Assembly: GCA_020352775.1 (NCBI GenBank)
Contig: CP070684.1
Coordinates: forward strand, 741,665-788,800
DNA: 47,136 bases
Reading direction: 5' to 3'
DNA from: Candidatus Omnitrophota bacterium
Lineage (GTDB): Bacteria; Omnitrophota; Gorgyraeia; Duberdicusellales; 4484-171
The notes below the pieces were generated by a model. The model saw only the letters and a list, made by a program, of their open reading frames with translations, was not told where the DNA came from and ran no database searches. Numbering within the stretch: position 1 is the stretch's first letter; every line of letters begins with the position of its first letter. The position numbers were made by a program, and so were the translations under genes. This document shows positions 2,781 to 47,136 of the stretch, in pieces.

Positions 2781-4040
2781 ATGGGTCAAACACTGATTGA
2801 AAAAATTCTTTCAGCGCATTCTAAAAAGTCTTTGAGGGCAGCTGAAGTAGGGATATGTTCGGTTGATTTCTGTTTTTCACAGGATGGAACCACGGCCCTT
2901 GTTTTAGATGGACTTTCACAGTTTAAAAATACAGTAAAAGATCCTAAGAAATATGCGATGTTTATAGATCACAGCAGTCCCTCTCCGAATTTGGGAGTAT
3001 CAAAGGTGCATTCTCGCATGAGAGGATTTGCGCAGGAAAGAGGCGCACTTTTTTTTGATGTTGGTTGCGGTATTTCGCATCAGCTTGTGATAGAGGAAGG
3101 AATTGTTTATCCCGGCGCACTTATTTTAGGGGCAGATTCACACACCTCTACTGCCGGGGCTTTAGGGGCAGCAGCTTTTGGAGTGGGTTCTACGGATTTA
3201 GCAGTTACGGTTGCCACTGGAAAGAATTGGTTTAAAGTTCCCCAAACATATAAAATCGTAATAAACGGTAAAATCCCTAAAGGTATATCCAGCAAAGATA
3301 TTGTTTTACATATTATCCATAAACTCAGTGCCAATGGTGCAACTTACAAGGCAGTGGAGTTTACGGGTGGGGTAATTGATAAACTCTCTTTGGATGCTCG
3401 TTTTACCATTACTAATATGACTATTGAATTCGGTGCTAAATGCGGGCTTATTGCGCCAGATAAAAAGACCTTGGCGCATTTAGCCGCGGTAGGGGTTAAA
3501 AAGCATAAGTCTTTTTATCCTGATAAAGATTGTAATTATGAAAAGATAATTGAGTTTGATGTTTCTAAGCTAAGTCCTTATATTGCTAAGCCCCATAGCG
3601 TGGATAATGGGGCGTCAGTAGAAGAGGTTGAGGGCACAAAGATTGATCAGACTTTCTTGGGTACTTGTACTAATGGCAGATTAGAGGATTTAGAAGTTGC
3701 AGCCAAGATTCTAAAGGGCAAAAAGGTTCATCCTCAAGTAAAGCTTTTGGTTGCTCCTGCTTCCCAGCGCATATTTTTAAAAGCTTTGCAAAAAGGAATT
3801 ATTCGCGTGTTTTTAGAGGCTGGGGGAGTGGTTTTGCCGGCCGGATGCGGACCCTGCGTGGGTACTCATCAAGGGGTGCCGGCTGATGGAGAGGTGGTTT
3901 TATCTACTGCTAACAGAAATTTCAAAGGAAGGATGGGTAATCCTTCTGCTTTTATTTATCTTGCCTCTCCAGCCACGGTGGCTGCTTCTGCGCTTAAAGG
4001 AAAAATTACTGATCCGCGCCGTTATTTAAAGAAGTCTTAA
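2781..4040 (+). CDS. leuC: Aconitase-superfamily hydratase large subunit (LeuC/homoaconitase type)
   Basis: The 419-residue protein matches the length of the stand-alone large subunits of 3-isopropylmalate dehydratase/homoaconitase. Three cluster-ligand cysteines are visible: C296 in GTCTNGR and C356/C359 in AGCGPCVG, enough for a [4Fe-4S] centre that binds substrate and water. IDHSSPSP, GADSHTSTAGALGA and FKGRMGNPSA are other conserved signatures. Its small subunit is at 5103, separated by pilT. The following isocitrate and malate dehydrogenases suggest that the physiological substrate could be citrate/isocitrate rather than isopropylmalate. No other leucine biosynthesis gene (leuA, leuB) is nearby. 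The symbol states homology; the substrate is not settled. Confidence 0.9.
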   Translation: MGQTLIEKILSAHSKKSLRAAEVGICSVDFCFSQDGTTALVLDGLSQFKNTVKDPKKYAMFIDHSSPSPNLGVSKVHSRMRGFAQERGALFFDVGCGISHQLVIEEGIVYPGALILGADSHTSTAGALGAAAFGVGSTDLAVTVATGKNWFKVPQTYKIVINGKIPKGISSKDIVLHIIHKLSANGATYKAVEFTGGVIDKLSLDARFTITNMTIEFGAKCGLIAPDKKTLAHLAAVGVKKHKSFYPDKDCNYEKIIEFDVSKLSPYIAKPHSVDNGASVEEVEGTKIDQTFLGTCTNGRLEDLEVAAKILKGKKVHPQVKLLVAPASQRIFLKALQKGIIRVFLEAGGVVLPAGCGPCVGTHQGVPADGEVVLSTANRNFKGRMGNPSAFIYLASPATVAASALKGKITDPRRYLKKS

Positions 4041-4054
4041 AAGGAGGTATTTAT

Positions 4055-5101
4055 ATGAAGATTAATGATTTATTCAAATTGACCATGGATAAAAAGGCAA
4101 GCGACCTTCATTTTACAATGGGTCGGCCTCCGGTATTAAGAATAGATGGTAAGCTGCAGCTCACTGATTATCCTGCTCTTGGTGAAAAAGAAATAAAAGA
4201 CCTTATTCATGGGATTTTAACTGAGGAACAAAAAGCTTATCTTGAAAAGAATAAGGAGTTGGATTTTTCTTATTCTTGTCCGGGGATGGACCGTTTCAGA
4301 ATCAATGCTCATTTTCAACGAGGCAATGTAGAGGCTGCTTTCAGGCGTATTCCAAGCATCATGCCTAGTTTTGAGGAGCTAGGGATTCCTGATATCGCCT
4401 ATGAATTTATCCGTAAGCCCAATGGTCTGGTTTTAGTGACCGGGCCTACTGGGATGGGTAAAAGTACGACGTTAGCGGCAATGCTTGATGTGATTAACAG
4501 CGAAAGAGAAGAGCTTATCATTTGCATTGAGGACCCTATTGAGTTTTATCACCATAATAAAAAGTGTATTATCAAACAAAGAGAGGTTCATGTTGATACC
4601 CGTTCTTTTCCAGAGGCATTGCGGCGCTGCTTAAGGCAAGACCCGGATATCATTGTGGTGGGGGAGATGCGAGATTTAGAGACAATCGCTACCACTATCA
4701 CTGCGGCTGAGACCGGACACTTAGTTTTAGCGACTTTACATACCCCGGATGCTCCCCAGACCATTCAGCGCATCATTGATGTTTTTCCTCCTCATCAACA
4801 GCCGCAGGTAAGAGCGCAGCTTGCCGATTCTTTGCAGGGGATAATATCGCAATTACTTCTTCCGCGTGCAAGCGGTGAAGGTAGAGTGCTTGCCACTGAA
4901 GTATTAGTGGCTACCAGCGGCATACGTAATCTCATTAGAGAAGGTGATGTTGCCCAGATTCCTTCGATGATACAGATGGGTGCAAAATACATGATGCATG
5001 ATATGGATAAGTGCCTTAAAGACCTTTGTACCAAGGGAGTGATTACAAAAGAGTTAGCGTTAAGCAAGGTCAGAAATATTATGCAATTTGAGGCATTGTA
5101 A
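4055..5101 (+). CDS. pilT: Type IV pilus retraction ATPase PilT
   Basis: The 348-residue GspE/PilT-family hexameric ATPase drives pilus retraction at the cytoplasmic base of the type IV pilus, giving twitching motility or DNA uptake. Seen: N-terminal PAS-like part beginning KASDLHF at about 14, Walker A GPTGMGKSTT from G130, Asp box CIEDPIEF, Walker B DPDIIVVGEMRDLETI, His box TGHLVLATLHTPDA, and the C-terminal GIRNLIREGD that corresponds to the AIRNLIRE motif required for PilT function. A strong AAGGAGG site precedes ATG. It lies 14 bases after the LeuC-like gene and two bases before the LeuD-like gene, an unusual position between subunits of an unrelated enzyme. No other pilus gene is in the window. 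Confidence 0.95.
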   Translation: MKINDLFKLTMDKKASDLHFTMGRPPVLRIDGKLQLTDYPALGEKEIKDLIHGILTEEQKAYLEKNKELDFSYSCPGMDRFRINAHFQRGNVEAAFRRIPSIMPSFEELGIPDIAYEFIRKPNGLVLVTGPTGMGKSTTLAAMLDVINSEREELIICIEDPIEFYHHNKKCIIKQREVHVDTRSFPEALRRCLRQDPDIIVVGEMRDLETIATTITAAETGHLVLATLHTPDAPQTIQRIIDVFPPHQQPQVRAQLADSLQGIISQLLLPRASGEGRVLATEVLVATSGIRNLIREGDVAQIPSMIQMGAKYMMHDMDKCLKDLCTKGVITKELALSKVRNIMQFEAL

Positions 5102-45380: not shown

Positions 45381-45515
45381 TTTAATCTATTGAATTATTA
45401 GCAGAAGAAGGATCTTACCCATTTTGTAATCGCTTCCAAAAAGCAGGCACATTCTATGGTTTCTGACCCATATGTATGTTATATTTAATGGTTTACTTTA
45501 TACGGTGATATCTTA

Positions 45516-47136
45516 TGGCTAAATATAACCTTTTTCGAAAAGGAACTATCTTTTTTAAGGCTGTCAACCTACTGGTGGTTGTGGCAATAATTACCGGAGG
45601 TCTATCTTTAGGCTTCTGGCGCAGTAGTAGCAGTGGGGCCGCGCTATACAACCTACCCTCACCAACAAGAATTATTTCCTTATCAAAAGACTATTCACTC
45701 CCGCTATTAAAAGGCATACGCTTTGACCCTCAAAACCCCTTAAATCTTGAGTTTATAATTGATACTGGCAGCAAAAAGGCTGCGAGTAAAGAGGAGGCTG
45801 GTCTTCTTATTCGGTATTTTTTAGCCGGATTGACCCTTTCCGAAGAGGAGTTGTGGGTCAATCTATCACCGTATGAAGAAGAAAGAGTTGCTTCTGACGA
45901 CCTGGCTTTAACTGACCTTGGTAAGGATATGTTAGGTCAGGATTATGTTTTGAAGCAACTCTTTTCTTCTTTGACCTATCCGGAAAGTAAAACCGGCCGA
46001 AATTACTGGAAAGAGGTCTATGAAGGAGTTGCCCAAATCGCTGGCACCACCAATATTCCCATAAATACCTTTAACAAAGTTTGGATTATGCCCGATAAAA
46101 TTACTGTGTATGAGAATGGTAATATTGCCTTTATTTCTCATGCTAACTTAAAGACTATGTTGGAGGAAGACTATTTTGCTTTGAAAAATAGTCCTCAATC
46201 TTCAGCTAATAATTCACAGGATAAAAATAACCAAGAAATTCATAAAGTAGCCTCAAGGGTAATGAAGGAACTAATTATTCCTAAAATAAACAATGATGTT
46301 AATTATGGCCAAAACTTTTCCACTCTTCGTCAAATCTACCATTCTCTTATCTTAGGCATCTGGTTTAAGCAAAAGTTTAAAGATACGCTATATAAACACT
46401 ACATTGACCAGGGTAAAATCAGCGGCATTGATTTAGAAGATCGAGGCGCCAAAGAAAAAATCTATCAATTATACGTAGAAGCCTATAAGAAAGGAGTCTA
46501 CAACTACATAAAAAACGAGCGTGAACCAGTTACTAAAAAAGCCATAAGCAGGCAGTATTATTCCGGTGGATTAGACTTTGGTAAGGCAATCCGTGAAGGT
46601 ATGCAAACAATTTCCACTGCTTCGGTGGGGGTTTCTGAGGGGGAGATAGATTATGCATCAGAGGGCAATTTACAGGTAGTGAGAGCTTCAGGAACTACAG
46701 TTAGTGGCAAGAAACCTCAGACTGTTTCTTCGCCGGCGGAAAAAACAACGGACAGCTCTTCTTCTCCCATCATGGGTCTTATGCGGGCAGCAATATCGAA
46801 AGTTAAGAAACTGTTTAGACGCAAGCCGATCAAAAAGAATTACGAAGTTTTAATATATCCTTTAACAGGTATTCCTTTTGAAGATCTGCGGGATGAAACA
46901 AAAAAGATATTATTTAAGGTGGGGGTAGATAATAGGTTAGTAGAAATGACCAAAGCCGCAGGAAATTATACAGGGGTTTTATTTGGGTTCGGCCTCCCTA
47001 ACTTAAGAGAATCTTTTGGCGTTAAATTCATAAAAAAACATTGGTCAGGCTTGGTAGAACTTGTCAAATCTGAAGGAAGGAGTGCAGGGGCTTTATTTGA
47101 GTCCGGCCTCCCTAACTTAAGAGAATCTTTTGGCGT
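45516..47136 (+). CDS. Start of a very large Omnitrophota-type repetitive protein (partial, no stop in window)
   Basis: An open frame of 540 codons begins at ATG 45516 and is open at the window edge. The N-terminus MAKYNLFRKGTIFFKAVNLL is a membrane/signal segment (to about 38). Residues 70-165 contain IRFDPQNPLNLEFIIDTG, IRYFLAGLTLSEEELWVNLS and LGKDMLGQDYVLKQLFSSLT, phrases I know from very long predicted proteins of Omnitrophota. A Ser-rich linker (about 410-430) and basic SKVKKLFRRKPIKK lead to a repeated part: GLPNLRESFGVKFIKKHWSG returns after 38 codons, with a 33-base exact DNA repeat (46990-47022 and 47104-47136). Total length is unknown. A possible -10 box (TATATT near 45480) precedes it. 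Confidence 0.82.
46990..47136 (+). repeat. Tandem 114-base coding repeat at the window edge
   Basis: The 33 bases at 46990-47022 recur exactly at 47104-47136, an offset of 114 bases (38 codons), in frame in the large gene. The window ends at the last base of the second copy. Confidence 0.85.

Follow-up and report, generated by a model that had tools for sequence, protein, structure and literature searches.

Giant open reading frames have been described in the Omnitrophota (Seymour et al. 2023, PMC10066038); they are much longer than the proteins treated here, are poorly conserved and carry many transmembrane (TM) helices, and Velamenicoccus archaeovorus encodes a protein of 39,678 aa (Seymour et al. 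2023, PMC10066038). What Omnitrophota send out of the cytoplasm is a question that the published giant-protein work leaves open. The gene described here lies at the right end of a stretch of 47,136 nucleotides (the window; G000:C1:741665-788800), which is one whole contig of a scaffold and is flanked by two runs of exactly 100 N (G000:C1, 741565-741664 and 788801-788900), a gap length that is nominal. The family to which the gene belongs, its plan, the signal-like start, the homology of its repeats and the presence of duplicated enzymes with kept catalytic residues were established by computation. On balance the gene probably belongs to an Omnitrophota export family with two tags, in which a signal peptide, an N-terminal domain (N-domain), a cargo and a tail follow one another; the tags would direct the cargo to its site past the inner membrane or release it there, and the cargo of the window copy would start with helical repeats. 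The N-domain, its junction motif and the tail give a handle on what uncultured, probably partner-dependent Omnitrophota send out of the cytoplasm.

A frame of 540 codons runs on the forward strand from an ATG at position 45515 to position 47134 and reaches the last base of the window; it is free of stops, as stated in the preliminary description, which had set its start one base too late (45516). Relatives of the frame could be aligned over about 350 residues with an identity of roughly 32-57%, so that the frame is not a product of chance; it is a real gene. The gene is truncated, with a 5' part of 540 codons at 45515..47136 (+) and a 3' remainder inside the 100-N scaffold gap. The window ends on the last base of an exact 33-base run (second copy 47104..47136, +; first copy 46990-47022), and since the 100 N begin right after this base, the assembly breaks at the end of an exact repeat; both points had been anticipated from a first inspection. 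A 736-aa frame that can be read through the 100 Ns was rejected, because it crosses Ns of nominal length and is therefore meaningless as a protein. The 160 codons beyond the gap appear to encode a separate protein, of membrane type and of a different kind, and no GGID tail of the family was found in the sequence past the gap, the 3' part of the window copy lying in the gap itself. Two adjacent multi-helix membrane proteins are encoded beyond the gap (L002:2902-3384 and 3472-4419), upstream of a polysaccharide/export cluster (glycosyltransferases, a flippase, an O-antigen ligase-like protein, Wza/Wzc-like proteins).

Residues 1-45 of the window protein (MAKYNLFRKGTIFFKAVNLLVVVAIITGGLSLGFW...SGA; 45515..45649, +) are signal-peptide-like by hydropathy and a positive n-region: four basic residues are followed by a hydrophobic core with a 12-residue Kyte-Doolittle maximum of 2.8, which bears out the N-terminal export segment proposed earlier, and the AlphaFold model of the N-domain has a helix at residues 12-34. 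With signal peptides called from hydropathy (not SignalP), a signal-peptide-like start within the first ~45 residues was found in 118 of 120 family members and in 115 of 398 simple control frames. By the same measure, no second membrane-like segment was seen in the N-domain of family members, and a membrane-like segment was seen in 6 of 115 family cargos; the visible part of the window protein has no TM-like segment past residue 35. The constant N-terminal domain extends over residues 1-352 (45515..46570, +), as defined from HMM and BLAST relatives and from the AlphaFold model (pLDDT 88.1, pTM 0.83), and in the window copy contains the motifs LWVNLSPYE, TFNKVWIMPDK, LKTMLEEDY and LRQIYHSLILGIWFK. 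The window copy matched the N-domain profile with E=2.7e-151, though this copy was itself among the rows from which the profile was built; compared with independent copies its N-domain was ~48-57% identical. Regarding known folds and families, Foldseek with the N-domain model gave no match at E<=0.001 in PDB or BFVD, the N-domain profile gave no match among PDB sequences (beyond one prohibitin hit at E=0.54), no member of the N-domain alignment had a Pfam match at E<=0.01, and NCBIfam yielded only two weak single hits to the alignment. A weak DptF match, with E=0.02 and a score of 13.7 bits where the cut-off is 50, was put down to chance.

The N-domain closes with a junction motif identified from the family hits, RQYYSGG in the window copy (residues 346-352; 46550..46570, +), RRYFSGG or RKYFSGG in other members and [RK]xY[FY]SGG in its family form; it was present in 45 of 49 initial hits and, in an independent set, in 88 of 100. 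The layout of the family comprises the signal peptide and a globular domain of ~310 residues, the junction motif, a variable region and a tail of ~65 residues at the stop codon, the region after the junction motif being unrelated between family proteins. The tail consists of GGID(L/F/M) and a stretch of ~60 residues with F.GF.F.I, and was found with an iterated profile in 95 of 114 complete members, at a median of 3 and a maximum of 28 residues from the stop. Among the other 19 complete members, several (L044, L072, L129) show the tail by eye, and in examples such as L153 and L194 an orphan frame with the tail directly follows the frame of the member; the true share of tails is therefore above 95/114. 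The opening ~350 residues are thus a fixed and widespread end piece that is joined to cargos of unrelated kinds, and another fixed piece closes the proteins. In the window copy, residues 353-474 between the junction motif and the repeats (46571..46936, +) form a variable linker with SSP motifs (TVSSPAEKTTDSSSSPIM), for which no relatives were found in the databases searched. SS(P/A) linker motifs are ~9-fold enriched in family cargos ([AVTS]SS[PA][VILAF], 82 occurrences vs 8.8 in shuffled sequence).

The linker is followed by repeat unit 1 (38 aa, LVEMTKAAGNYTGVLFGFGLPNLRESFGVKFIKKHWSG; 46937..47050, +) and by repeat unit 2 (LVELVKSEGRSAGALFESGLPNLRESFG; 47051..47136, +), which is cut by the gap. 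The period is 114 nt (38 codons), positions 46937-47022 match 47051-47136 at 81% identity and without a mismatch over the final 33 bases, and the consensus of the unit reads LVELxKxxGxxAxxLFxxGLPxLRESFG... Homologous units were found in only two of the retrieved family proteins, L163 (E=8.5e-23) and L160 (E=2e-11), both of the two-tag plan; L160 is 1,493 aa long with the tail present, and L163 (JAGOSC010000031.1, Gw_Eff_bin_307, frame from 9926) exceeds 3,678 aa and has an SNF2 helicase domain. L163 also has about ten HTH-like units and many GLPAVKELI repeats, and thus presents a helicase behind an export signal. Elsewhere in the window genome and in 10 relatives the repeat did not occur beyond chance, so it is not a general trait of large proteins of the phylum; its helical appearance, suggested earlier, was upheld, a model of the L163 units being all helix with low confidence (pLDDT 63). 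This model gave weak fold matches to designed helical repeats and to ARM/HEAT proteins, the best natural ones being importin-alpha3 and catenins (including beta-catenin), which were not significant at E<=0.001. No Pfam HEAT or ARM family, and no Pfam family at all at E<=10, matched the window protein. The window cargo is probably an alpha-helical binding scaffold of HEAT/ARM-like type.

The N-domain occurs in 137 of the 384 Omnitrophota genomes sampled, in many of which candidates outnumbered those scored, and in 92 of 249 good-quality ones. The window genome has four N-domain copies, the other three being 48-49% identical to the window copy over residues 4-388 of the 540-residue query. Among 58 relatives, the domain was present in 11 and missing from most, with more than 20 match rows each in G011 and G041; since it is absent from many members of the bacterial family to which the window genome belongs, it is not essential. 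An alignment-based scan of 84,980 genomes, one per species, yielded at least 486 relatives of the N-domain, and the best 79 loci, which were kept, come from records named Omnitrophota/Omnitrophica, Aceula or Elulimicrobium, save two named just 'bacterium', in agreement with the assignment of the protein as Omnitrophota-type in the preliminary description. An unnamed domain is thus found in about a third of the sampled Omnitrophota, sometimes in more than 20 copies in a genome of 1.5-2.5 Mb.

Regarding the cargos, Pfam searches past the junction motif identified HEAT, TPR, WD40 and ankyrin repeats, kinases (ABC1, protein-kinase-like), M48 peptidase, Fic, methyltransferases, radical SAM, epimerases, an intein and an SNF2 helicase, and, on the metabolic side, PGI, hexokinase, TIM, PGK, enolase, iPGM, PPDK, phosphoglucomutase, UDPGP, GH77, GDE and a GatZ/KbaZ-like protein. 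The family member L065 (G019:C173) combines the intein/Hint splicing domain with degenerate repeats with SLQNNLTEYAFPALFRSSANRSDE. Genome G041 encodes PGK+PPDK, TIM+enolase and the GatZ/KbaZ-like protein as cargos of three consecutive genes, with phosphoglucomutase and iPGM as those of two genes on a different contig. Seven distinct PGKs and three enolases were confirmed to have the N-domain in their own frame, and an additional PGK within a frame of ~1,100-3,000 aa is present in about 15 of 65 genomes. The tagged enzymes were discarded as sole copies of the cell, an ordinary PGK of ~400 aa being present in each genome checked and an enolase in 14 of 16; in G041 the tagged PGK and enolase stand beside cytosolic copies. 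A PGK-like piece in two fragments lies inside an open frame of 18,421 aa (G268:C33:24536-25594). A long-form PGI was found in five genomes, and the three complete examples have the N-domain or junction motif in the same frame; among solved structures its closest relatives are a glycosomal PGI and enzymes of the E. coli type, and it is unlike the short native copy. Such tagged frames were seen with a distant short native PGI alongside in G351:C2, G249:C95, G331:C54, G162:C83 and G388:C82, which suggests that the long tagged PGI was acquired from another lineage. In a small PGK tree the tagged PGKs grouped together inside the Omnitrophota copies; their branches were long and the support was moderate, so no conclusion was drawn about their origin. 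One candidate starch-synthase member in the window genome (L008:848-3601; a frame with starch synthase, kinase and family tail) was rejected, as this frame crosses a 100-N gap; only the kinase is joined to the tail, and the starch synthase probably belongs to a gene of its own.

With the signal peptide, the protein would leave the cytoplasm by Sec, and the two constant ends may act as address tags (or processing sites) that place the cargo, or release it, beyond the inner membrane; the place of action could be the surface, or the cargo could be directed towards a partner cell. The cargo of the window copy begins with 38-residue alpha-helical repeats, a probable HEAT/ARM-like binding scaffold. 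Since the gap truncates this copy upstream of any tail, the rest of its plan is deduced from its relatives: the missing 3' part presumably holds more repeats and the GGID tail, with an overall length of about 0.7-3.3 thousand residues for the protein. As a tentative extension, which we are inclined to doubt, some Omnitrophota might export a second, catalytically competent glycolysis (PGI, TIM, PGK, enolase, iPGM and PPDK, plus glucan and glucose-phosphate enzymes) between the two address domains, so that ATP-yielding sugar breakdown would take place outside the cytoplasm, in a lumen or in a partner cell, and the window gene would be a scaffold member of this set. Glycolytic enzymes as exported cargo, if true, would be unexpected. 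A literature search (bioRxiv not included) returned no account of the two-tag family or of exported glycolysis in Omnitrophota.

It was considered whether the window gene instead encodes a true giant of more than 20 kb for adhesion or predation, as in Velamenicoccia, with a repeat that runs for thousands of residues past the gap. The assembly does break inside the repeat, giant ORFs occur commonly in Omnitrophota (PMC10066038), and frames bearing the N-domain reach 6,160 aa, L163 being longer than 3,678 aa; against this, the median length of the 114 complete members is 1,414 aa, the longest has 3,349 aa and none reaches 20 kb, although for some of them length is bounded by the ~20 kb stretches of sequence available. 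The only complete copy in the window genome measures 1,878 aa and has the tail, the visible part of the window protein lacks TM helices past residue 35, and the published giants are poorly conserved with many TM helices, whereas the window's domain is conserved in a third of genomes. The designation 'giant' in the preliminary description is not supported, and the corresponding reading is improbable. Far less probable still is that the gene is an assembly artefact, broken or chimeric, without biological significance. The gene does stand at a scaffold gap, and in the window genome three of the four N-domain frames and two of the three tails abut 100-N gaps; the genes of the family are where the assembly of this genome fails. 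The plan, however, is intact in more than 100 proteins of independent assemblies, which refutes this explanation for the family, and the window genome itself holds the complete 1,878-aa copy with its tail. An orphan tail, GGIDLNINKIEIEGEG..., at G000:C1:520004-520156 (-) directly after a 100-N gap (L220; G000:C1:518500-523500) marks a further family gene of the window genome, with its body missing.

Two other explanations concern the destination and the use of the cargos. The tags could lead into an internal membrane-bound, organelle-like lumen, with the tagged glycolytic enzymes as a bacterial counterpart of the glycosome; a Sec-type signal may equally lead into a lumen, and the tagged set of G041 spans much of lower glycolysis (PGK, PPDK, TIM, enolase, iPGM, PGM, an aldolase-like protein). 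The catalytic residues are also largely in place: all 12 catalytic or metal positions inspected in enolase are kept in three tagged copies, bar one gap in one copy, K, H and E are kept in the tagged TIM, and most positions are kept in the tagged PGKs, with single losses such as R65 to S or N and K219 to H. The other cargos (Fic, kinases, ankyrin, WD40, the M48 protease) better fit interaction with other cells, and a lumen is rather unlikely. In other bacteria, enolase, PGK and TIM are known to moonlight at the cell surface. The family proteins might thus reside in the envelope with enzyme-like domains that serve as binding modules and not as catalysts, in line with the loss of single substrate residues in some tagged PGKs; residue loss would, however, be expected without selection for catalysis, so that the kept enolase and TIM residues count against moonlighting, which is judged unlikely as well.

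The preferred reading, an export family with two tags, can be set against known systems. With the Omnitrophota giant ORFs the family shares the phylum, size, repeats, few recognized domains and a probable location outside the cytoplasm, and it differs from them in its conserved end domains, a length of mostly 0.7-3.3 thousand residues, the lack of internal TM helices and the many paralogues per genome. The 38-residue helical repeat of the window and the all-helix, low-confidence model resemble HEAT/ARM alpha-solenoids, the difference being that the window protein has no Pfam HEAT/ARM match. A signal peptide together with a conserved C-terminal piece behind unrelated cargos recalls the cargo of Type 9 secretion, from which the present family differs by its second constant domain at the N-terminus; family models of the Type 9 C-terminal domain gave no match in 22 family proteins scanned singly, the tail of the window copy being missing, and neither the fold of that domain nor its machinery came up in the analysis. 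Polymorphic toxin and effector families likewise have a constant N-terminal domain that ends in a short motif and is followed by variable effector-like domains; most cargos of the present family are not toxins by Pfam, and in contrast to the polymorphic toxins this family has constant pieces on both sides of the cargo and includes housekeeping-type metabolic enzymes.
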